Shown one piece after another: positions 11,671-25,737 of a stretch of DNA of 64,000 bases. Every line of letters begins with the position of its first letter. Positions within the stretch are counted from its first letter, which is position 1. The position numbers were made by a program, and so were the translations under genes. The notes beneath the pieces were generated by a model. The model was not told the DNA's origin. It saw only the letters and a list, made by a program, of their open reading frames with translations, and made no database searches. This stretch comes from Pseudonocardia sp. C8 (GTDB lineage Bacteria; Actinomycetota; Actinomycetes; Mycobacteriales; Pseudonocardiaceae): NCBI RefSeq assembly GCF_014267175.1, contig NZ_JACMTR010000002.1, positions 1,066,001 through 1,130,000 on the forward strand, read 5' to 3'.

Positions 11671-12501
11671 TCAGCCCTTGACGGCGTGCACGATGCCCCA
11701 GGTGAGCTTGCCGGCGTTGCCGCCGTCCACCCAGTGCTGCAGGCCGGCCTTCATGTTGGTGATGTAGGTGTCCGAGATCGCCGCGGACAGTTCCTGCTCG
11801 CGGGCGACGAGCTCCTCGCGGACCCGCCGGTAGTGCGTCGGCAGCTGCCCGGCGTGGTCGTGGAAGGTCACCGAGGCGAAGCCGCGCTTCTCGAGGCCGC
11901 CCGTGTAGAAGCCGGGCGTCGCCATCGTCGACAGCTGGATGCGGTCGAGGATCGGCTGGATCGACGACTGGTCGAGCCCGTCGACCGCCATCGGGTCGGT
12001 GAACACGGCGTGGCCGCCCGGGCGCAGGACCCGGGCGATCTCGTCGAGCACCCGCTCGCGGTCGCCGGAGTGCAGGAACGCGTCCTGCGACCACACGACG
12101 TCGACCGACCCGTCGTCGACCGGCACGTCCTCGAAGGTGCCCGTCGCGACGGTCACCAGGTTCTCGAGTCCCTGCCGCGTGGTGAGCCGGCTGTTGCGGT
12201 CGTTCTCCACCGGGGACAGGTTCAGGCAGTGCACCTTCGCCCCGAGGTTGCGGGCGAGCTGGCGGGCGGCACCGCCGTAGCCGGCACCCAGGTCGAGCAC
12301 CCGCGTCCCCGGGGCGAGGCCGGCGATCTCCGCCATCCGGGCGACCGTGCGGCGGCTGGCGGCGGCGATCTCCTCCTGCGGGGTCTCGTACATCCCGACG
12401 TGGATGTCCTCGCCACCCCACACCCGGGAGTAGAAGGTGTCCGCGTCCTCGGAGTCGTAGTAGCTGCGGGCGGTGTGTTCCGCGGTCTGCGCCTGGGTCA
12501 C
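11671..12501 (-). CDS. Sarcosine/dimethylglycine N-methyltransferase
   Basis: A 276-residue SAM-dependent methyltransferase that finishes glycine betaine synthesis (sarcosine to dimethylglycine to betaine). The SAM site VLDLGAGYGGAARQLA is near residue 70, with the later LNLSP, QDAFLHSGDRE and RVLRPGG motifs; YYDSEDADTFYSRVWGGED at the N-terminus is typical of this family. GTG start at 12501 overlaps the upstream gene's stop by 4 bp. Together with that gene it allows de novo synthesis of the osmoprotectant from glycine, a trait of halotolerant actinobacteria. Assignment is by strong motif similarity. Confidence 0.9.
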   Translation of the reverse strand: MTQAQTAEHTARSYYDSEDADTFYSRVWGGEDIHVGMYETPQEEIAAASRRTVARMAEIAGLAPGTRVLDLGAGYGGAARQLARNLGAKVHCLNLSPVENDRNSRLTTRQGLENLVTVATGTFEDVPVDDGSVDVVWSQDAFLHSGDRERVLDEIARVLRPGGHAVFTDPMAVDGLDQSSIQPILDRIQLSTMATPGFYTGGLEKRGFASVTFHDHAGQLPTHYRRVREELVAREQELSAAISDTYITNMKAGLQHWVDGGNAGKLTWGIVHAVKG

Positions 12502-13352
12502 GCCTCGTCCTCCTCGAGGTAGGCCTTCTCTGCGATGTGCACGAAGAAGTCCGGCTCGTCGTCGGAGTAGGTCGACTGGAAGTCCCCGTAGGTCGTGATG
12601 CGCTGGAACCCGACCTCGTGCATGAGCCGGCGCGTGTAGTCCTTGCGCAGCGGGAACATGTTCAGGTGGTACTCGGAACCGTCCGGGAACTGGTAGCGGA
12701 ACCGGGCGAGCCCGTCGTCGACGTACTCCGGCTCGGCGACGACGTCGTCGCCGCAGTAGTAGTACTGGTGCTTCGAGCTGAAGCCGTTGTCCAGGATCGC
12801 GTCGTAGTTCCGCTGGTCCAGGATCAGGACGCCGTCGTGCTTGAGCATCGCGTAGAACTCGGCGAGCGCCTTGCGCCGGTCCTTCTCGGAGAACAGGTGG
12901 GTGAACGAGTTCCCGAGACAGATGATCGCGTCGTACTCACCGTGGACGTCCCGGTTGAGCCAGCGCCAGTCGGCCTGCACGACGCGCAGGATGTGCCCGC
13001 CGAACTTCATGCCGTTGTCGAACGCCTTCGCCAGCATCTCGGCGCTGCCGTCGGCCGAGACGACGGTCTCGAAGCCTTCCTCGAGCAGCCGCACCGAATG
13101 GAACCCGGTCCCGGTGGCGACGTCGAGGACGCTCTGCACCCCGCGGTCGCGGAGCTGCTGGACGAAGAACTTCCCCTCGCTCTCGTAGCGGCCTCGCCAG
13201 TCGATGAGCTCGTCCCACTTGTCGACGAACGACTGCACGTACTCGTGCTTGTAGTGGGTGGACTCGCGGACCTCGGTGGGTTCGTCACCGAACTCCTGCA
13301 CGGTCCGTCCGAGCTCGGGGAGCTCGCTGGTGGTGCGATGGTCGGCCGTCAT
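12498..13352 (-). CDS. Glycine/sarcosine N-methyltransferase
   Basis: A 284-residue SAM-dependent methyltransferase catalysing the first betaine-synthesis steps, glycine to sarcosine to dimethylglycine. The N-terminal YVQSFVDKWDELIDWRGR region, the SAM motif VLDVATGTGFHSVRLL near residue 77, and CLGNSFTHLF and RNYDAILDNGF are characteristic of bacterial GSMT. ATG at 13352. It is the first gene of a two-gene operon, with a 4-bp overlap to the second enzyme. Expression is probably induced by osmotic stress, but no known osmotic regulatory site can be named. Confidence 0.92.
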   Translation of the reverse strand: MTADHRTTSELPELGRTVQEFGDEPTEVRESTHYKHEYVQSFVDKWDELIDWRGRYESEGKFFVQQLRDRGVQSVLDVATGTGFHSVRLLEEGFETVVSADGSAEMLAKAFDNGMKFGGHILRVVQADWRWLNRDVHGEYDAIICLGNSFTHLFSEKDRRKALAEFYAMLKHDGVLILDQRNYDAILDNGFSSKHQYYYCGDDVVAEPEYVDDGLARFRYQFPDGSEYHLNMFPLRKDYTRRLMHEVGFQRITTYGDFQSTYSDDEPDFFVHIAEKAYLEEDEA

Positions 13353-13698: not shown

Positions 13699-14904
13699 TC
13701 ACCCGTTCGGCCCAACCGCGCCCCTCCAGAGGGCGGTGAGCGCCCGGCGGCGCTCATCGCGGCCGAGGCCGCGCAGGTCAGCCGTGCCCCGGTCGGTGAC
13801 CACGACGTCCACGTCGTGCGACGGCGTGGTGACCGGCCCGCCCAGCTGCTCGACGAGCGTCGGCCGGCCCCGGTGCGACGACGGGAGCGCGATCACCGAC
13901 AGCCCGGGCCCGCGCGCCGCGGCGGCCGCGAAGTCCGGGTGCCCGCCGATCATCCCGGCGGCCGACCCGGCGACGCCCTCGACGTTCACCTGCCCGTCCA
14001 GGTCGATCTCGAGCGCCGTGTTCAGGGCGACCAGCGGCCCCGGGTCGGTGGTCAGCCGGCTGAGGTCGTGGGTGTACTCGACGGGCCGGACGACGCCGTG
14101 GCCCGCCCGGCCCAGCCGATCGGCCCACTCGTGGAGCCGCGCGCTGCCGTGCAGCGCGGTCGCCGACGGCGTGCCGCGCAGCAGCCCGCGCTCGGCCAGG
14201 TCGACGACCGGGTCGGCGAGCAGCCCCGAGTCGACGTGCACCGGGACGTCCAGGGCGGTGACCAGCGCGCCGGCCAGCCGGCCGGGACCGAACTGGACCC
14301 GCGCGCCCGCGGGCACGAGCGCGGCCACCGCCTCGGCGATCGCGCGGTCCGCCGGGGTCGGCGGGGGAGCCTCGATCGCGTACGGCCGCCCGGCGTCGCC
14401 GTCCACCTCGCCCAGGACGGTCACGTCCGGCAGCGGGTCCCCGGCCTCGGCGTGCGGCGCGGTCCGCGAGACGACCGCGGCGACCGGCACCCCGTCCTCG
14501 GCGAGCCCGCGCATCCACGACGACTCGGCGCCGAACCGGTAACCGTCGGCGTGCGCGACGACGGTCGCGAGCAGCAGGTCGGGACGCAGCGGCCCGGCGA
14601 GCAGCGCCGGCAGCGCCGACAGCCGGGCCGGCACCCGGTGCGCGGCACCCGACTCGACGAGCCTCCGGACCCCCGGCCCGCCGACGACCGTCCGGATGTC
14701 GGCGAACGCGGCCGGGTCGAGGTCCGGCGGCGGGCCGGGGACCCAGCCCAGCACCAGCCGGATCCCGCCGGCCCGGGCGGCCACCCGGCTCAGCGGGCGG
14801 GCCAGCACGGAGGGCAGCCCGCACGCGTCGGCCAGCGCGATCCGCGCACCGGGCCGGACCAGCTCGCGCAGCCCCCGCTCGGCGGTGACCTCGACGTCGC
14901 TCAT
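13699..14904 (-). CDS. Acetyl-CoA hydrolase/transferase family protein
   Basis: A 401-residue class I CoA-transferase-fold protein of the acetyl-CoA hydrolase / 4-hydroxybutyrate CoA-transferase group. The C-terminal domain is clear: VHVDSGLLADPVVDLAERG, LNTALEIDLDGQVNVE and the IALPSSHRGRPTLVEQL region. It probably moves CoA between acetyl-CoA and another acid, or hydrolyses acyl-CoA. The N-terminal half is less conserved. It is divergent from a quinone-reductase gene by 50 bp. Substrates cannot be decided from sequence. Confidence 0.83.
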   Translation of the reverse strand: MSDVEVTAERGLRELVRPGARIALADACGLPSVLARPLSRVAARAGGIRLVLGWVPGPPPDLDPAAFADIRTVVGGPGVRRLVESGAAHRVPARLSALPALLAGPLRPDLLLATVVAHADGYRFGAESSWMRGLAEDGVPVAAVVSRTAPHAEAGDPLPDVTVLGEVDGDAGRPYAIEAPPPTPADRAIAEAVAALVPAGARVQFGPGRLAGALVTALDVPVHVDSGLLADPVVDLAERGLLRGTPSATALHGSARLHEWADRLGRAGHGVVRPVEYTHDLSRLTTDPGPLVALNTALEIDLDGQVNVEGVAGSAAGMIGGHPDFAAAAARGPGLSVIALPSSHRGRPTLVEQLGGPVTTPSHDVDVVVTDRGTADLRGLGRDERRRALTALWRGAVGPNG

Positions 14905-17286: not shown

Positions 17287-18051
17287 TCAGGCCATGTCGA
17301 GGCCGCCGTTGACGCTGATCACCGAGCCGGTGACGTAGCCGGCGCGGTCGTCGACCAGGAACTGGACCGCGCGGGCGATCTCGTCGGCCTGGCCGAGCCG
17401 GCCCACCGGGATCTTCGCGAGGATCCGCTCCATGGCCTTCTCCGGCACCGCGGCGACCATCTCGGTCTCGATGAAGCCCGGGGCGACGCAGTTGACCGTC
17501 ACGCCCTTGTTCGCGACCTCCTGGGCCAGCGACTTCGAGAAGCCGATCAGGCCGGCCTTGGAGGAGGCGTAGTTCGCCTGGCCGATCGAGCCGGTCTGGC
17601 CGATCACCGAGGAGATGTTCACGATCCGGCCGAACTGGTTGCCGGTCATGTGGTCGAGCACGGCCTTGGTCATGTAGAAGGCGCCGGACAGGTTGATCCG
17701 CAGCACGGCGTGCCAGTCGTCGACGGTCATCTTGCGGACGGTCTTGTCCACGGTGATGCCGGCGTTGTTGACCAGGTAGTCGACCCGGCCCTTCTGCTCG
17801 AGCACCTCGGCGACGACGCGCTGGCAGTCCTCGGGGGAGCCGACGTTGCCCTGGTGCACCGAGACCGAGGCCCCCTCGGCGCCCAGCTTCTCCTTCAGGT
17901 CGTCGGCGGCCTTGGAGTTGGACGAGTAACCGGCCGCGACGTGCACGCCCTGCCGGGCGAGCGCGGTGGTGATCGCGGCACCGATGCCGCGCGCACCCCC
18001 GGTGACGATCGCGACGCGCTGCTCCGGCTGCGTGTCGGTGATGGCGGTCAT
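17287..18051 (-). CDS. fabG: 3-oxoacyl-ACP / acetoacetyl-CoA reductase (FabG/PhbB-type SDR)
   Basis: A 254-residue NADPH-dependent short-chain dehydrogenase. Cofactor motif TGGARGIG is near residue 18, NNAG at about 95, catalytic Ser in ISSVIGQTGSIGQ and YxxxK in YASSKAG. The KMTVDDWHAVLRINLSGAFYMTK stretch and the length resemble acetoacetyl-CoA reductases (PhbB) as much as FabG. It overlaps the 3' end of the carboxylase gene by 4 bp, so the two are translationally coupled. This supports a role on a product made from the carboxylase's malonyl-CoA, either acetoacetyl-CoA or a 3-ketoacyl-ACP. Confidence 0.9.
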   Translation of the reverse strand: MTAITDTQPEQRVAIVTGGARGIGAAITTALARQGVHVAAGYSSNSKAADDLKEKLGAEGASVSVHQGNVGSPEDCQRVVAEVLEQKGRVDYLVNNAGITVDKTVRKMTVDDWHAVLRINLSGAFYMTKAVLDHMTGNQFGRIVNISSVIGQTGSIGQANYASSKAGLIGFSKSLAQEVANKGVTVNCVAPGFIETEMVAAVPEKAMERILAKIPVGRLGQADEIARAVQFLVDDRAGYVTGSVISVNGGLDMA

Positions 18052-21000
18052 TCCGTTCCTCCAGTGTTGTCGAGCGTGCGCTTCATGCCCCGCTGGACGG
18101 CGTCGACCAGGTACGGCCGCAGCTGGTCCGGGCTGACGATCCGGTGCACCGAGCCGACGGACTGCGCCCGCTCGATGGAGTGCTTGGTGTCGAACTCGTC
18201 CGCGACCTGGCCGAGCTTCTCGGAGCGGACGTCCGGGCGGAGCGTGGCGAGCTCGCCCCGCAGCCGGGCGGCCGTGGCCTCGTCCCCGGCCTCGGTCGCC
18301 TCGGCGATCCGGGCCTCCAGGCCGGTGATCCGCTCGTCCTTCGCGGTGCGGTCGTTGACCTCGCTGGCGAACACGACGGCCGCGGCGGGCGCGCCGCCCA
18401 GCACCGAGGCGTACGACCCGGTGATCGCGGCGATCTCCATGTTGTCGTTGAGCGTTCCGGAGAACACCACGAACGCGCCGCCGTGGTAGCGGGAGACCAC
18501 GCAGAACACGATCGGGCCGTCGAAGTTCACGATGGCCCGGCCGATCTCGGCGCCGTTCTCCAGCTGCAGCCCGCGCAGCGACTCCGGCGAGCCGTCGAAC
18601 CCGGACAGGTTCGCCAGCACGACCAGCGGCCGATTGCCGGACGCCGCGTTGATCGCCCGCGCGCACTTCCGCGAGGACCGCGGGAACAGGGTGCCCGCGG
18701 TGAACTGCGACGGGCCGTCCACCGGACGCGGGCCGCGGCGGGGCAGCGGCCGCGACTCGATGCCGATCATGGCGACCGGCTGCCCGCCGAGGTGGGCGTC
18801 GAGCACGACGACCGACTGGGCGTCGTGCATGTCGGCCCAGCGCTCGGTGGTGCCGTGGTCGGCGTCGGCGACACCGCGCATCACCGAGCGGATGTCGAAC
18901 GGCTTCTTGCGCTCGCCGTTCGTCTCGTCCGACCAGATCTCGCCGAGCGTGGTGAACTCGCAGTTCGGGCCGGCGTGCGGCGCGGTCGTCACGTCCCGGG
19001 AGACCGGGTCGGTGGTCGGCGCCGGGCGCGGGAACCGCTCGCCCGGCAGCGACCAGGTGTGTGCGTAGTGCTTGAGCAGCACCTGCACAGCGCCGGACAG
19101 GTCGGGCGCCCAGTACTGCGCCTGGCCGTTCGGGCCCATGATCCGGTCGTAGCCGCCGATGCCGAAATTGTCCTCGGCGGAGACGCCACCGGAGTAGTCC
19201 AGCGACTGCTTGCCGGTCAGGACCATGGTCGAGTCCGGCGTCATGACCAGGATGCCCTTGGTGTGCATGAGCATCGTGGCCTCGGCGTTCCAGTAGGGCT
19301 GGGCGCCGACGTTGATGCCGGTGACGACGACGTTCAGCTCGCCGCCGTCCTGGGTGAACTCGATGATCCCGCGCAGCACCCGGGAGATCCAGTCCATGTT
19401 CTCGGTCCCGGAGTCCATCGCGATCTTCGCGCCGGCCGAGACGGCGAACCACTCGATCGGCACGTCGAGCTCGCGGGCGAGCCGGATCGCGGCGAGCACC
19501 CGGCGGCACTCCGGCTCGGCGATCGCGCCGAGCGCCCGGGTCGGGTCACCGAGCAGCACCACCCGGCGCATGCCCTCCGGGTAGCGCAGGGTCGGCACCG
19601 ACACCACGCCGAGCACCAGGTTGGCCGAGTTCCCGCCGGGCGCGCGGTCCACCGGGTAAGGGACACCGCTGTCATCACTGCCGTCGAGGTCGTACTCGGT
19701 CCAGGTGCCCTCACCGGCGTCGATCGGCGCGGTGAGCAGCGGGACGATCTCGTACGGGTAGACGGCGCCGCGGCGGCGGGCCTTGAGCACCTTCTGGTCG
19801 TACGCGTCGAGCTCTCGCATCGGCTCGGTCGGCGGCTCGTCGAGCCGGATCGTCAGGCCGGCACCCGGCGGGCGCGACATGCGCAGCAGCATCGAGCGCG
19901 GGCCGCCCTGACCGCCGGTCACCGAGGCGTCGGTGGTGCGGAACTCGACGAGCACCTGCTCCAGGCCGAGGTTCGCGGTGCGGGGCGCGAGCCGGCGGAT
20001 GACCGGCTCGAGCTCGGACAGCGGCACGTCGATCTCCGGCCACACGTAGAGCGCGATCCGGTTCCAGGAGGTGCGGGCGAGCGTGCGGTCCCCGGCCCGC
20101 GCCGCGCGCAGCGAGTTGATGCAGGCGTCGAGCGCCCGTTCGAACTGCGGCAGCGCGCGGATCTTCCCGGTCTCGTCGTCGCGCAGGACGGTGAACTCCC
20201 GGACGTCGGCCATCGCGACCAGCCGGTCGTCGGCTGCGACCTCGCGGCCGGTGGCCCGGAACAGGTGGACGTCGAGGGCGGCCGGCAGCCGGGTCAGGTG
20301 GAAGTTGCGGAACCGCCACAGCCGAAGCCGGTCCGCGACCAGCGGGTGCATGCCGCGCAGCCGCCGGTCCTCGACGAGCTCGCCGGTCTCGTCCGGGCGG
20401 AACGTGAACCAGGTGGGCGTCTCGTCCACGTCGGCGTGCTCGGTGCGCGGGTTCGGCCGGACCGCGACCGCGACCCGGTGCAGCACCCCGCCCGGGACGC
20501 GGCCCAGCGCCGCCCGGACCCGCTCGGCGCGGGCGTCGGGGTCGCCGCCGTCGTCGGCCTTGGTGGAGGTGACGTAGAGGTCGACGAGCGCGGTGCGGTT
20601 GCCGTCCAGCTCGGCGACCCGGCGGCGCAGCTCCTCGGCGACCGCCGCGGCGGCCGCGGGATCGTTGTTGTCGATCACCGAGGCGAACAGCGTGCGGTCG
20701 TTGCCCAGGTGCTGGTAGCGCGCGGTGAGCAGCGGCTTGCCGGCGTGCTCGGTGAGCTCCAGCTCGCGCAGCGGGCGCACCCGGTAGTAGCGCCGGGTCA
20801 TGACCTCGAGCAGGACGGCGTCGTGCCGCTCGCCGAACACGCCGAGGATCGGCTCCGAGGAGGCGACGAGCGCGTCGATCCGCCGGGCCCGGTCCGGGGC
20901 GGTGTCGTCGCCCGCCCGCCCCTCGGCGAGCACGTCGAGGCTCTCCCGGACCTCGTGCAGCGTGCGGGCGCGCTCGGCCGCGACCACCGGGGCGTCGAAC

Positions 21001-23681
21001 GCCCGGTAGCGGAGCAGGCGGGCGGTGTCGCCGACGACCGGGTGCCGCAGCTGGGTGGCGACGACGAGCCCGTCGAGGGTCCGGAGGTACTCCTCCCGGG
21101 CGGCAGGGGAGAGCCCCGCGACCGACTCGGGGTGCTGCAGCCGCCAGTTCAGCAGGTCCAGCACCACCGGAACCTGCTGCGGCGCGCGGCGGTGCGCGAG
21201 GAACATGCGGTACAGCGCCGGCCCCAGATCCGGATCGTCCGAGATGTCGGTGATCCCGTAGTGCGCGAGCGCCCGGCGCAGCTTCGCCTGGAACGACTCG
21301 GGCAGGCCCTCGTCGTCGGCGTCGCGGCTGCGCAGGTAGGCGTAGAGGTACTCCTGCGGGTTGCGCTCGGTCTCGCCGGTCTCGTCGTCGGTCTCGGAGC
21401 GGTTGCGCGACAGCGCGCACAGGTCGGCGAAGATCTGCAGGACGGCCGTCTCCCCGGCCAGGACGGCGGGATCGTCGCCGGCCAGCTCGTTGCGGGCGGT
21501 GGCCAGGCGGCGCAGCTGCGGACGGGCCTGGCGCTCGTCGACGTCGAAGCCCAGTACCTGGTAGCGCAGCGCCGACAGGGCGTCCGCCGCGGTCGCGGCC
21601 GGGTCGGCGTCGGTGGCGGCGGGGGCGAACGCGGAGAAGTCCGCGCGGTCCCCGGCGGCGGCCGCGGCCACGCCGGCGTCCGCCGACGGCTCGAGCCGGA
21701 CCAGCTTGGTGCCGCCGTCGACCTGGGTGTTGGCCGGCACCAGGAGCTCGGCCACGGTGCCGTCGAACGGCGCCCGCAGCGACGTCTCGAGCTTCATCGA
21801 CTCGACGATCGCGACCGTGTCGCCCTCGGACACGACCTGGCCGGGGGTGACCGGCAGCGCGACGACCATCGCCGGGGCCGGTGCGCGGACGATGCCCGCC
21901 TCACCGCCGGAGATGCGGTGCACGGCGCCGTCGACCTCGACCAGGTAGTCGGCGTCCTGGGCGACCGAGAGCACGGTCCAGCTCTGGTCACCGACGGTGA
22001 GCCGGCGCTCGTAGGCGCCGTTGCGCTCGACGTCGACGTCGATGCTGACCCCGTCCAGCTCGACGCGGTAGCGCCCGGCGCGGGTGCGGGCCACCTTCAG
22101 CTTGTACGACTGCCCGGCCGCGGTGACGTCGGTCTGGTGCCAGGTCTCGTAGCCGACCTCGGGCCGGCCCGCGGCCGCGGAGCGGAACAGCCGGTCCTGC
22201 TGGCGGGCGACGTGGCCGTCGTGCGACTGGATCGCGGTGGCCAGCAGGGCGACGTCGATCCGGCGGGGCGGGGCGTAGCCCTCGGCCATCATCCCGTCGA
22301 GCCAGGTGGTCTTCAGGTCACCGGTGCGCAGCTCGGGACGGTCGAGCAGGTCGAGCAGGAACGCCTTGTTGGTGGAGCCGCCGTCGATCACCGCGGCGGT
22401 CTGGCGCAGCGCGCGGGCCAGCCGGGCGCGGGCCTCGTCGCGGTCCCGGCCCCATGCGATCACCTTGGCGATCATGGAGTCGAACTGCGGCGGGATGACG
22501 TCGCCCGCGGCGACACCGGTGTCCACCCGGATCCCGGGGCCGCTGGGCAGCGCCAGGTGCTCGATCCGGCCCGGTGCGGGCGCGAACTCGCGCTCCGGGT
22601 CCTCCGCGGTGAGGCGGGCCTCGATCGCCCAGCCGTTCCCGTCCGGAGCGGAGCCGGCGACGTCGGCCAGCGCACCACCGGCGGCCACGTGCAGCTGCAG
22701 CTTGACGATGTCGACGCCGGTGCACGCCTCGGTGACCGGGTGCTCGACCTGCAGCCGGGTGTTGACCTCGAGGAAGGAGAGCAGCTTCTCCTCGGGCTGG
22801 TAGAGGAACTCGACGGTGCCGGCGTTGACGTAGCCGGCGGCGCGGGCCAGGTCGGCAGCGGAGTCGCGGAGCAGCTTCTCCTGCTCGGCGTCCAGCGCGG
22901 TGGACGCCGACTCCTCGATCACCTTCTGGTTGCGCCGCTGCACCGAGCAGTCCCGCACGCCCAGCGTCCACACGTCGCCGGTCGCGTCCGCGACCACCTG
23001 GACCTCGACGTGCCGCCCGCCGGAGACCGCCCGCTCCAGGAAGACCGTCGCGTCGCCCGCGGTCCGCGAGGCCTCGGACACGGCCCGCTCGAACGCCTCG
23101 TCCAGCTGATCCGGGCCCGCCACGAACCGGATGCCGCGGCCGCCCCCGCCCGCGGTCGCCTTCACCATCAGCGGGTAACCGATGGTCTCGGCGGCCTTCC
23201 GCGCGGCGTCCAGGTCGGCCACCGGGCCGCCGGACCACGGGGCCATCGGGACGCCGACCGACTCGGCCAGCTGCTTGGACGCGATCTTGTCACCGAGCCG
23301 GCGCATGACGTCGGCCGACGGGCCGACGAAGGTGATCCCCAACCGCGCGCACAGCTCGGCGAAGTCGGCCTTCTCCGAGACGAAGCCCCAGCCCGGCCAC
23401 ACGGCGTCCGCCCGGGAGGCGCGCAGCGCCCGCTCCAGCTCGGCGTGGTCGAGGTAGGGGCTCGCGCCCATGTGGTCGGGGTCGTCGGGTCCGATCAGGA
23501 CGGCCTCGTCGGCCTCCCGGACGTACATCGCGCGCCGGTCGACGGCGGTGTACAGCGCGATGGTGCGCAGCCGGCGGTCGGGGCCGCTCTCGGCGTTCCA
23601 CTCCCGGACGGCGTTGATCAACCGCATGGCGGGTTCACCGCGGTTGACGATGGCGATGCGCGAGAACATGGCGGGTTTCAC
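18048..23681 (-). CDS. Single-chain acetyl-CoA carboxylase with eukaryotic-type domain order
   Basis: A 1,877-residue multidomain carboxylase that should make malonyl-CoA from acetyl-CoA, bicarbonate and ATP. Order: biotin carboxylase (1-460; KATAGGGGRGIRF, LEVNTRLQVEHPVTE), BT-like linker (500-590), biotin carrier (598-668; biotin Lys about 630 in VESMKLE), a central region (about 740-1290; RYYRVRPLRELEL, YPYEIVPLL) and fused carboxyltransferase (about 1300-1877; WFAVSAGAKIAMDSGTEN, VLANLSGFDGS, SRYHGGAFVVFSG). This is the plan of eukaryotic ACC, unlike the usual split actinobacterial subunits. Start is GTG 23681 or ATG 23669; AGGAG spacing does not decide. A long-chain or propionyl substrate cannot be excluded. 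It is flanked by a ketoacyl synthase and a reductase. Confidence 0.9.
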   Translation of the reverse strand: MKPAMFSRIAIVNRGEPAMRLINAVREWNAESGPDRRLRTIALYTAVDRRAMYVREADEAVLIGPDDPDHMGASPYLDHAELERALRASRADAVWPGWGFVSEKADFAELCARLGITFVGPSADVMRRLGDKIASKQLAESVGVPMAPWSGGPVADLDAARKAAETIGYPLMVKATAGGGGRGIRFVAGPDQLDEAFERAVSEASRTAGDATVFLERAVSGGRHVEVQVVADATGDVWTLGVRDCSVQRRNQKVIEESASTALDAEQEKLLRDSAADLARAAGYVNAGTVEFLYQPEEKLLSFLEVNTRLQVEHPVTEACTGVDIVKLQLHVAAGGALADVAGSAPDGNGWAIEARLTAEDPEREFAPAPGRIEHLALPSGPGIRVDTGVAAGDVIPPQFDSMIAKVIAWGRDRDEARARLARALRQTAAVIDGGSTNKAFLLDLLDRPELRTGDLKTTWLDGMMAEGYAPPRRIDVALLATAIQSHDGHVARQQDRLFRSAAAGRPEVGYETWHQTDVTAAGQSYKLKVARTRAGRYRVELDGVSIDVDVERNGAYERRLTVGDQSWTVLSVAQDADYLVEVDGAVHRISGGEAGIVRAPAPAMVVALPVTPGQVVSEGDTVAIVESMKLETSLRAPFDGTVAELLVPANTQVDGGTKLVRLEPSADAGVAAAAAGDRADFSAFAPAATDADPAATAADALSALRYQVLGFDVDERQARPQLRRLATARNELAGDDPAVLAGETAVLQIFADLCALSRNRSETDDETGETERNPQEYLYAYLRSRDADDEGLPESFQAKLRRALAHYGITDISDDPDLGPALYRMFLAHRRAPQQVPVVLDLLNWRLQHPESVAGLSPAAREEYLRTLDGLVVATQLRHPVVGDTARLLRYRAFDAPVVAAERARTLHEVRESLDVLAEGRAGDDTAPDRARRIDALVASSEPILGVFGERHDAVLLEVMTRRYYRVRPLRELELTEHAGKPLLTARYQHLGNDRTLFASVIDNNDPAAAAAVAEELRRRVAELDGNRTALVDLYVTSTKADDGGDPDARAERVRAALGRVPGGVLHRVAVAVRPNPRTEHADVDETPTWFTFRPDETGELVEDRRLRGMHPLVADRLRLWRFRNFHLTRLPAALDVHLFRATGREVAADDRLVAMADVREFTVLRDDETGKIRALPQFERALDACINSLRAARAGDRTLARTSWNRIALYVWPEIDVPLSELEPVIRRLAPRTANLGLEQVLVEFRTTDASVTGGQGGPRSMLLRMSRPPGAGLTIRLDEPPTEPMRELDAYDQKVLKARRRGAVYPYEIVPLLTAPIDAGEGTWTEYDLDGSDDSGVPYPVDRAPGGNSANLVLGVVSVPTLRYPEGMRRVVLLGDPTRALGAIAEPECRRVLAAIRLARELDVPIEWFAVSAGAKIAMDSGTENMDWISRVLRGIIEFTQDGGELNVVVTGINVGAQPYWNAEATMLMHTKGILVMTPDSTMVLTGKQSLDYSGGVSAEDNFGIGGYDRIMGPNGQAQYWAPDLSGAVQVLLKHYAHTWSLPGERFPRPAPTTDPVSRDVTTAPHAGPNCEFTTLGEIWSDETNGERKKPFDIRSVMRGVADADHGTTERWADMHDAQSVVVLDAHLGGQPVAMIGIESRPLPRRGPRPVDGPSQFTAGTLFPRSSRKCARAINAASGNRPLVVLANLSGFDGSPESLRGLQLENGAEIGRAIVNFDGPIVFCVVSRYHGGAFVVFSGTLNDNMEIAAITGSYASVLGGAPAAAVVFASEVNDRTAKDERITGLEARIAEATEAGDEATAARLRGELATLRPDVRSEKLGQVADEFDTKHSIERAQSVGSVHRIVSPDQLRPYLVDAVQRGMKRTLDNTGGTE

Positions 23682-23733
23682 TGCTCCTGAGGGCTGCTAC
23701 GGCGGGTGACGGTCGGGACCGGGTACGGCCCCG

Positions 23734-23772
23734 CCGGTAGGACGGGCGAGATCGCTCGCACTGTCCTACCGG
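23734..23772 (-). terminator. Hairpin between ketoacyl synthase and carboxylase genes
   Basis: Outer arms CCGGTAGGAC (23734-23743) and GTCCTACCGG (23763-23772) are perfect; inside, GCGAG and CTCGC pair around ATCG. It occupies the 106-bp intercistronic gap and could attenuate or terminate readthrough, or protect a processed end. Confidence 0.65.
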
Positions 23773-23787
23773 TGGAGCGCGTTCCTG

Positions 23788-25737
23788 TCACTCGCCGAAG
23801 GCGATACGGACGTCGTCGGTCGTGGGCGCGGCGGCGACGGGCGCGCCGCCGGCGGCGGCCGGGTCGAGGAACACCTCGGGTGCCATGACGGCCGGGTCGA
23901 CCTCCAGGACCGCGTAGCCGCCGACCGCGCCGGCCCCGAAGCCGGGGGCGAACACCCGCTTGCGGCCGGCCACGACGCCGTCGGCGCAGGCGTCGAACAT
24001 CGCGATCGGGATGGACGCGGCGGAGACGTTGCCCATCGTCTCGATGTTGAAGTACAGCTGGTCGGCCGAGAGCCCCGCCTTGGCCGCGAGCTGCAGGATC
24101 ATCGTCTTGTTGGCCTGGTGCGGGACGATCAGCTCGATCGCGTCCAGCATCGTTCCGGTGCCGTCCGGGCCGGCCTGCTCGCCCAGCTCGGAGATCATCT
24201 GGGCGAGGTAGCGGGCGACCAGGGCCTTCACCTCGGGGCCGTAGACGGTGATGTCGTTGTCGAACTCCGGGTTCGGCCAGATGATCGAGTTGACCTGGGA
24301 CGCGGGCCCGGAGGCGTAGGTCTGCAGCAGGTCGACGTCGCCGGGCTCGCCCTCGGCGGCCGGGGCGACGACCATCGCGGCCGCACCGTCACCGAAGATC
24401 ATCCGGGAGGTGCGGACGCTGCCGATCTTGTCCGAGAACTTCTCGACGCAGACCAGCAGGACCGGGCGCTGCACCTCCTGCAGCTGCCGGACGGCCTCGG
24501 ACAGGCCGTAGGGCAGGCCGGCGCAGGCGGCGACGATGTCGGCCGAGCAGTGCGTCTGCAGGATGCCGAGCTGGCCGGAGAGCCAGGTGGACAGCGAGGG
24601 GATCAGCCGCTCGCTGGTGCACGTCGCGACGAGCACGGCCCCGATCTCGGCGGCGGTGCGACCGGAGTGCTCGAGCGCCCGGACGGCGGCCGCCCAGGCC
24701 AGGTCCTCGATGTCGAGCTCGGTGTAGCGGCGCTGGTCGATGCCGGTCTTGGTGGAGATCTCCTCGGCGCTCATCGGGGACCAGGAGAACGAGGCGTTCC
24801 GCACGACGTCGTCGTTGGCGCAGACGTGCTCGCCGCGGGCGACGGCGACGGCCTCGATCTTCGGCTGGACCCGGAAGGCCTCGCGGACCCGGACCGGGGG
24901 CAGCGGAGCCTCGGGCTCGACCGCGTCCGCCTGGGTGGAGATGCGCCCGCGGCGGGCCGGGCGGGCCCCGGAGGCACGGTCGAGGAAGGCCTCGACGTCG
25001 CGGTTGCGCGGGTGGAAGGCGATCACGTAGTCGTCGTCGCCGATCCGGTCGGCGGTCCGCAGCTCGGTCGCGGCGCGGTCCCACGGGTACTGGTTGTGCA
25101 GCACCATCGCCCAGCGGGTGAGGGCCTCCAGCTCCGGGCGGTCGGCGTCCGCGTCGACGATCTCGTTGAACGAGAAGACCGGGTAGTCCGGGTCGTGGTG
25201 CGGGACGACCCAGGTCTGTGCACCCGGGGTCGTGAGGAACTCCTGCACGGTCGGCTTCAGCGCCGGCAGCTCGGTGGCGTGGTGGCGGCGGTTGCCGAAG
25301 ACGTCGAAGAGCAGATCGAAGATCTTCTGCTCGGCCGCGTCGTCCCAGGTGGCCGGCAGCGTCGCGAAGGCGTCCCGCACCGCGCGGATCTTCTTGTCGC
25401 CGTCCTGCCACGGGGTGAGCGTGGGGAGGAAGACGTCGCCGCGGTGGCGCGGGAGGTCGCGCCAGCGGGTGGGCCGCTTCTCGAACATGGTCATCGAGTA
25501 GCGGTTGACCCAGAAGAGGTTCTGGCTGACGTCGCGCAGCAGGGCGAAGCGGCTCTCGTACTTCCCGGCCGTGATGCGCTCGAGGATGTCGGTTCCGGTA
25601 GGGGCTTTCGACTCGAAATCGCGACCGACGATTGCCGTGAACTGTTCGAGGTCGTCGATCACCGAGAAATCGAGTTCACCGAGAAAATTCGCGGGAAAGA
25701 CCAGACGGTCGTGGCTGTTGACCACGAACGGCTTCAT
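23788..25737 (-). CDS. Beta-ketoacyl synthase III-like enzyme with extra N-terminal domain
   Basis: A 649-residue protein. The C-terminal part (about 295-649) is a KAS III fold with an intact triad: Cys405 in DIVAACAGLPYG, His540 in IVPHQANK and Asn570 in IETMGNVS. It should condense an acyl-CoA with malonyl-CoA or malonyl-ACP. Residues 1-290 (starting MKPFVVNSHDRLVFPANFLG, with FEKRPTRWRDLPRHRG and NQYPWDRAA) resemble no family I recognise; ordinary FabH lacks this. The ATG at 25737 has CTGGAGG nine bases ahead. It is upstream of the carboxylase gene on the same strand, which points to use of its malonyl-CoA; acetoacetyl-CoA synthesis, as in NphT7, is one possibility. Confidence 0.85.
   Translation of the reverse strand: MKPFVVNSHDRLVFPANFLGELDFSVIDDLEQFTAIVGRDFESKAPTGTDILERITAGKYESRFALLRDVSQNLFWVNRYSMTMFEKRPTRWRDLPRHRGDVFLPTLTPWQDGDKKIRAVRDAFATLPATWDDAAEQKIFDLLFDVFGNRRHHATELPALKPTVQEFLTTPGAQTWVVPHHDPDYPVFSFNEIVDADADRPELEALTRWAMVLHNQYPWDRAATELRTADRIGDDDYVIAFHPRNRDVEAFLDRASGARPARRGRISTQADAVEPEAPLPPVRVREAFRVQPKIEAVAVARGEHVCANDDVVRNASFSWSPMSAEEISTKTGIDQRRYTELDIEDLAWAAAVRALEHSGRTAAEIGAVLVATCTSERLIPSLSTWLSGQLGILQTHCSADIVAACAGLPYGLSEAVRQLQEVQRPVLLVCVEKFSDKIGSVRTSRMIFGDGAAAMVVAPAAEGEPGDVDLLQTYASGPASQVNSIIWPNPEFDNDITVYGPEVKALVARYLAQMISELGEQAGPDGTGTMLDAIELIVPHQANKTMILQLAAKAGLSADQLYFNIETMGNVSAASIPIAMFDACADGVVAGRKRVFAPGFGAGAVGGYAVLEVDPAVMAPEVFLDPAAAGGAPVAAAPTTDDVRIAFGE

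Follow-up and report, generated by a model that had tools for sequence, protein, structure and literature searches.

The textbook route to polyhydroxybutyrate (PHB), carried by PhaA, PhaB and PhaC, relies on a reversible thiolase. Here we describe three genes in a 64,000-nucleotide stretch of the Pseudonocardia sp. C8 genome (6.24 Mb, two contigs), hereafter the window, that encode a two-domain 3-ketoacyl synthase III (KAS III), which we call KAS-N, a single-chain acyl-CoA carboxylase and a FabG/PhaB-type reductase. We consider it likely, on the strength of sequence and gene context, that these genes are the precursor-supply module of a malonyl-CoA-driven PHB pathway in which KAS-N acts as the acetoacetyl-CoA synthase. 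This reading is supported by the occurrence of PhaC near KAS-N in other genomes, by the co-occurrence of the two, by the loss from KAS-N of two arginines of FabH, by the presence of a separate FabH, by the absence of FabD and FabF at nearly all KAS-N loci, and by the match of the reductase to the acetoacetyl-CoA reductase model TIGR01829. The proposed set and the classical pathway have in common the reductase, the polyhydroxyalkanoate (PHA) synthase, a phasin-like protein and a regulator, whereas KAS-N, at many loci together with a carboxylase, would replace the PhaA thiolase.

Among described enzymes, NphT7 of the Streptomyces mevalonate clusters shares with KAS-N membership of the KAS III family, an intact catalytic triad, replacement of the residues equivalent to Arg249 and Arg36 of Escherichia coli FabH, and the proposed reaction. 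KAS-N differs from it by an extra N-terminal domain and by the company of a reductase and PHA genes, HMG-CoA synthase not being its neighbor. Engineers have swapped thiolase for NphT7 to drive carbon into PHB; NphT7-PhaB-PhaC is reported to make PHB in cyanobacteria and NphT7 to stand in for thiolase in sugarcane (PMC7933458, PMC10530661). Another report places the thiolase condensation at about +7 kcal/mol, as compared to -0.9 for the malonyl-CoA reaction (PMC5432608). The engineered pathway joins malonyl-CoA and acetyl-CoA into acetoacetyl-CoA, which is then reduced and polymerized, the steps also proposed here, but it is man-made from unrelated parts whereas the KAS-N set consists of natural genes. 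No natural malonyl-CoA-dependent PHB cluster was found in the literature searched, subscription journals lying largely outside its reach.

The carboxylase has its closest described counterpart in SACE_4237 of Saccharopolyspora, a homodimeric multidomain acetyl-CoA carboxylase (ACC) that carboxylates propionyl-CoA as well as acetyl-CoA and is indispensable to fatty acid synthesis there (Livieri 2019, PMC6491548). The window carboxylase is the same in domain order, size and central region, and differs in being set beside KAS-N and a reductase. An earlier note on this DNA had presented a single-chain ACC as an oddity among Actinobacteria; the single chain stands, but we have rejected its novelty because the family was already described in that report. 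The new part of the locus is the two-domain KAS III, and the carboxylase is ordinary.

The minus strand carries all three as open frames, read in the order KAS-N, carboxylase, reductase. KAS-N (649 residues, 23788..25737) starts with an ATG at 25737 that is preceded by a GGAGG box, and its stop is separated by a 106-bp gap (23682..23787) from the start of the carboxylase (1,877 residues, 18048..23681), whose TGA stop and the ATG of the reductase (254 residues, 17287..18051) share a 4-bp ATGA overlap at 18048..18051. The earlier note had read the genes in just this way, as a one-strand set with a KAS III of intact triad upstream of an overlapping carboxylase and FabG/PhbB-type reductase, and these parts of its description are confirmed.

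The condensing enzyme and the reductase

KAS-N consists of a KAS III, at approximately residues 290-612, fused to an N-terminal domain of about 262 residues (24952..25737, minus strand); the earlier assignment to KAS III is therefore right for the part that carries the triad, but the protein is a fusion and not a plain KAS III. A Pfam search gave no match for residues 1-290. The whole protein was modeled by AlphaFold2 with a mean predicted local distance difference test score (pLDDT) of 82 from a 68-row alignment, and residues 1-262 alone with a pLDDT of 78 from 16 rows; a Foldseek comparison of the latter model with the PDB gave no match at E<=0.001. The triad Cys405, His540 and Asn570 and the HQAN-K-T-M residues are invariant in all 68 homologues aligned. 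Against the fabH model TIGR00747 the window protein scores 143.3 bits, below the cut-off of 292.1, and in plasmid records no match covers 80% of the protein.

Residues of the KAS III types were compared in an alignment of 25 KAS-N sequences, E. coli FabH, the C8 FabH, eight other FabH-type proteins and two NphT7 orthologues, the latter being genes that adjoin HMG-CoA synthase in Streptomyces mevalonate clusters; four of 12 FabH-like loci (L114, L121, L122 and L126), being without usable sequence, are not part of it. At position 249 of E. coli FabH, Arg is found in all ten FabH-type sequences, as against Thr (23) or Val (2) in KAS-N and Val in both NphT7 orthologues; at position 36, the same ten again have Arg, and all 25 KAS-N and both NphT7 sequences have Lys. 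Thr545 and Lys330 occupy the two places in the window protein. NphT7 is reported to be without KAS III activity, presumably since it has lost an arginine required for the binding of acyl carrier protein (ACP) (PMC5432608). We take this arginine, from the alignment and general background, to be the one at FabH position 249. Because both arginines are lost from KAS-N, its restriction to ACP substrates appears less likely.

It does not follow that KAS-N is NphT7 under another name. The KAS-N sequences form a clade of their own (25 members, support 0.85) apart from NphT7, and the window protein shares 27-34% identity with the FabH-type and NphT7 sequences, and 27-28% with the two NphT7 orthologues over the KAS region. 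The AGGSR motif is present in both NphT7 orthologues and in one of the ten FabH-type sequences, and in none of the 25 KAS-N. We have rejected orthology with NphT7 because of the separate clade and the missing motif, and any likeness between the two enzymes would thus be convergent.

KAS-N was also considered as the housekeeping FabH of C8 and rejected in that role, because a separate FabH-like gene (at locus L158) lies elsewhere in the genome beside genes that can be read by eye as FabD, ACP and FabF. With the C8 FabD and FabF as queries, FabD was found in none of 45 KAS-N loci and FabF in one. As an aside, a second KAS-N copy in another genome (L105, G051:C1:987000-1003000) is split over the overlapping frames 994527-995885 and 995878-996489, which might reflect a damaged gene or an error in sequencing.

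The reductase passes TIGR01829 (311.3, cut-off 302.1) and barely passes the FabG model (298.7, cut-off 297.75), while its score of 197.6 against the PhaB equivalog NF042966 is below the cut-off of 436. Arg129 and Arg172 of E. coli FabG dock ACP. In the window reductase and 16 reductases from other clusters (17 of 17), Ser-Tyr-Lys is kept and both arginines are absent; the control for this pattern is weak, as seven other short-chain dehydrogenases/reductases (SDRs) of C8, viewed out of 74 other SDR matches, include none with Arg129 and two with Arg172, one of which (Lys129/Arg172) adjoins a gene read by eye as enoyl-ACP reductase. As a test of CoA preference, the two arginines are therefore weak.

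KAS-N and PHA genes in other genomes

Among the named carboxylase loci (the best 80 of 246), KAS-N is present in 15, all of them among the 30 labeled Pseudonocardia; the other 15 Pseudonocardia loci have the carboxylase without KAS-N, some on cut contigs. Of the 15 Pseudonocardia loci having all three genes, 14 run KAS-N, carboxylase, reductase, so that the order is not due to chance; the exception is P. hydrocarbonoxydans (L012), where the order is carboxylase, glycoside hydrolase family 3 gene, KAS-N, reductase. Genome samples, each of which counts C8 itself, gave KAS-N in 42 of 100 relatives (40 of 60 within the genus, plus G081 and G089), in 27 of 298 genomes of the order sample, in 4 of 394 of the class sample and in 2 of 396 of the phylum sample; some families thus have it often, while across the phylum it is seldom met.

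We compared 30 KAS-N loci from outside Pseudonocardia with the window proteins and with the PHB genes of L103, a locus described below. The carboxylase was seen in 22 (three of them cut by contig ends), a reductase of at least 50% identity in 21, and all three genes, with the same limit on the reductase, in 16; contigs end near KAS-N at some of the loci, so that misses are partly technical. The check on conserved synteny that the earlier note had proposed therefore has a positive outcome: genes of all three protein families stand together in Pseudonocardia, in Geodermatophilaceae and in one further family, with two different orders among them.

Many of these loci hold PhaC as well. It is encoded in the same stretch as KAS-N at 18 of the 30 loci, from four families: Geodermatophilaceae (f16; 11 of 17), f4 (2 of 4), f35 (3 of 3) and f100 (2 of 2), with none in f10 (0 of 3) or f116 (0 of 1). 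By a rough estimate, the chance of finding PhaC at any one locus would be about 1%, given some three PhaC genes per 5-Mb genome and 20 kb viewed. Four loci (L177, L178, L182 and L183) have KAS-N, the reductase and PhaC together without the carboxylase. The fullest arrangement is that of L103, from family f35 and outside the class of C8, in which genes for MaoC, an SDR reductase, PhaC, a phasin-like protein, an XRE regulator, KAS-N and the carboxylase stand in a row. The L103 PhaC is above the PhaC_N cut-off and, at 604 bits, just below the class I cut-off of 623; the phasin-like protein has an E of 8e-4, below the Pfam cut-off. For the SDR beside PhaC in L103 (2269-3027), the match to the best reductase models was confined to the first ~181 residues.

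The earlier note had suggested that phaC be sought in the C8 genome, and five PhaC_N matches are present there, the nearest lying ~270 kb away. One C8 locus (L154, 6664-11230; contig C2 at ~2.095-2.099 Mb) holds a PHB-depolymerase-like gene, PhaC (2.096 Mb), an XRE regulator and a phasin-like frame, with a sigma-70 family gene adjoining; no thiolase or reductase match was found in this stretch. Its XRE protein is 52% identical to that of L103. L103 thus unites what C8 keeps at two loci, namely KAS-N, carboxylase and reductase at one, and the depolymerase-like gene, PhaC, XRE and phasin-like genes at the other. In a second Pseudonocardia genome (G021), an XRE gene of the same type adjoins KAS-N, with a phasin-like gene 15 kb and PhaC ~19 kb further.

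Across whole genomes of the order sample, PhaC_N is found in 85 of 298, comprising all 27 with KAS-N and 58 of the 271 without it (Fisher p 6e-17, with relatedness ignored), and in the sample of relatives PhaC is present in 41 of the 42 KAS-N genomes. More telling than the whole-sample figure is family f4, where, within the order sample, PhaC is confined to the four KAS-N genomes. We also considered whether KAS-N-free genomes have phaA and phaB beside phaC while KAS-N genomes lack them, and dropped the idea: among 20 picked Geodermatophilaceae PhaC loci, the two groups were not separated, with a thiolase near PhaC in 4 of 16 genomes without KAS-N and 3 of 4 with it.

A proposed malonyl-CoA-driven supply of PHB precursors and its rivals

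In the pathway that we favor, the carboxylase would convert acetyl-CoA to malonyl-CoA, as shown for its relative SACE_4237, and KAS-N would join acetyl-CoA and malonyl-CoA, without ACP, into acetoacetyl-CoA and CO2, the same reaction as that of NphT7 by way of a separately evolved KAS III. The reductase would then form (R)-3-hydroxybutyryl-CoA for polymerization by a PHA synthase, which in Pseudonocardia would come from the other locus, together with the regulator and phasin-like protein. The condensation would be one-way because of the decarboxylation, whereas the thiolase reaction is reversible. The earlier note had outlined the steps from malonyl-CoA through acetoacetyl-CoA to 3-hydroxybutyryl-CoA; synteny and the presence of phaC favor that outline and would narrow it to PHB supply.

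Several observations weigh against this reading. Loss of the two FabH arginines is no proof of ACP independence, since the KAS III of A. baumannii lacks both and yet binds ACP (PMC8036411), and the AGGSR motif missing from KAS-N is one linked to CoA recognition in NphT7. The carboxylase was not seen beside KAS-N at 8 of the 30 loci outside Pseudonocardia. No PhaC was found in any of 18 Pseudonocardia stretches around KAS-N (the window, the 15 named loci, L184 and L107; several of them short), and in the window a thiolase is encoded 4 kb away from KAS-N. Finally, the figure of 27 of 27 is inflated by ancestry, because PhaC is also common in KAS-N-free members of the same groups: Geodermatophilaceae make up 25 of the 58 KAS-N-free PhaC genomes, and within Pseudonocardia PhaC occurs in 39 of 40 genomes with KAS-N and in 18 of 20 without it.

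Of the rival explanations, the one that survives best, though we think it unlikely, is that KAS-N makes some other 3-ketoacyl-CoA for PHA, such as 3-ketovaleryl-CoA from propionyl-CoA and malonyl-CoA, giving 3-hydroxyvalerate units or mixed polymers. The PHA context fits this equally, SACE_4237 accepts propionyl-CoA too (PMC6491548), and Phe87 of the FabH primer pocket is Ile or Met in KAS-N, a weak point as the C8 FabH also has Ile; the usual pool, however, is acetyl-CoA, and no residue rule at hand predicts primer length for the KAS-N clade. Quite improbable, in our estimation, is a role for KAS-N in starting off fatty acids or lipids, as an enzyme dedicated to that step and placed beside a carboxylase that feeds fatty acid synthesis. 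The separate FabH with its by-eye FabD, ACP and FabF, the loss of both arginines, the PhaC, phasin-like and XRE neighbors of KAS-N, and the four loci with KAS-N, reductase and PhaC in the absence of the carboxylase all speak against it, even though SACE_4237 is the carboxylase that fatty acid synthesis cannot do without (PMC6491548), the score of the reductase is narrowly above the FabG cut-off as well, and one locus (L101) has a FabF-like gene ~5 kb off. The window carboxylase probably also serves fatty acid synthesis.

It is very unlikely that KAS-N connects fatty acid synthesis with PHA as a 3-hydroxyacyl-ACP:CoA transacylase, a role that has been suggested for FabH in PHA-producing recombinants and in Burkholderia (PMC8231600), as this would require ACP binding, for which Arg249 and Arg36 are missing, and would make a dedicated reductase superfluous. 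That the neighborhood is incidental, three general genes of acyl metabolism with no joint pathway, is hardly credible given two gene orders of the same families in several bacterial families, the added PhaC and the 4-bp carboxylase/reductase coupling, despite the 15 of 30 named Pseudonocardia loci, some on cut contigs, that have the carboxylase without KAS-N.

If the PHB supply reading is true, it would explain how bacteria could store carbon at low acetyl-CoA, would tie PHB to the carboxylase of fatty acid synthesis, and would offer new enzymes for bioplastics, as well as a testable role for proteins listed merely as 3-oxoacyl-ACP synthase III and for the Pfam-unmatched N-terminal domain. We would tentatively go further, and suggest that KAS-N could be a family of acetoacetyl-CoA synthases that has two domains, arose separately, needs no ACP and gives several actinobacterial families an ATP-powered, irreversible route to PHB, its N-terminal domain tethering carboxylase, synthase and reductase to one another or to the PHB granule; docking of this domain to a partner enzyme or granule is a guess.

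The carboxylase and other genes of the window

By Pfam, the carboxylase comprises biotin carboxylase (BC) N-terminal (5-126), ATP-grasp (131-339) and C-terminal (354-462) domains, a biotinyl domain (598-663), ACC_central (1085-1234) and a carboxyltransferase (CT) domain (1370-1861), which bears out the eukaryotic domain order that had been read from the 1,877-residue chain. It is thus one chain of the ~200 kDa class with BC, biotin carboxyl carrier protein, central region and CT. The biotin-accepting Lys630 lies in ESMKLE, with its codon at 21792..21794 (minus strand) by arithmetic from the residue position. The C8 genome has five CT matches; when the window carboxylase was matched against the stretches around the other four, only its biotin carboxylase part was found at three and nothing at one, so that it appears to be the only one of the SACE_4237 type among the five. 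In another frame of this genome (L004, G000:C2:919039-923451), biotin carboxylase and CT parts are present in one chain.

Relatives of the carboxylase among the best 80 of 246 are 46-91% identical to it, the nearest named ones being from Pseudonocardia, at up to 91%. In a tree of the 100 sequences (of 102) that passed length and stop filters, all bacterial and with eukaryotic ACCs and SACE_4237 left out, Pseudonocardia groups with Actinomycetospora, and Geodermatophilaceae with family f10. KAS-N-bearing and KAS-N-free loci are intermixed within Pseudonocardia; the carboxylase therefore looks long established, and KAS-N like the gene that is gained and lost. Among the best 80 of 246, single-chain carboxylases with 46-51% identity along most of the chain or the whole of it are also found at L060, L063, L068, L074, L079, L082 and L084, under the labels Minicystis, Myxococcales, Deltaproteobacteria, proteobacterium and Acidobacteria, and so beyond the actinobacterial families listed in PMC6491548.

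The reductase is followed in the window by a glycoside hydrolase family 3 gene on the opposite strand. Further along, 13699-14904 encodes a protein with an acetyl-CoA hydrolase/transferase C-terminal domain, possibly a CoA-transferase, and 11671-13352 holds an adjacent pair of methyltransferase genes with a 4-bp overlap that resemble, by eye, glycine betaine methyltransferase pairs.

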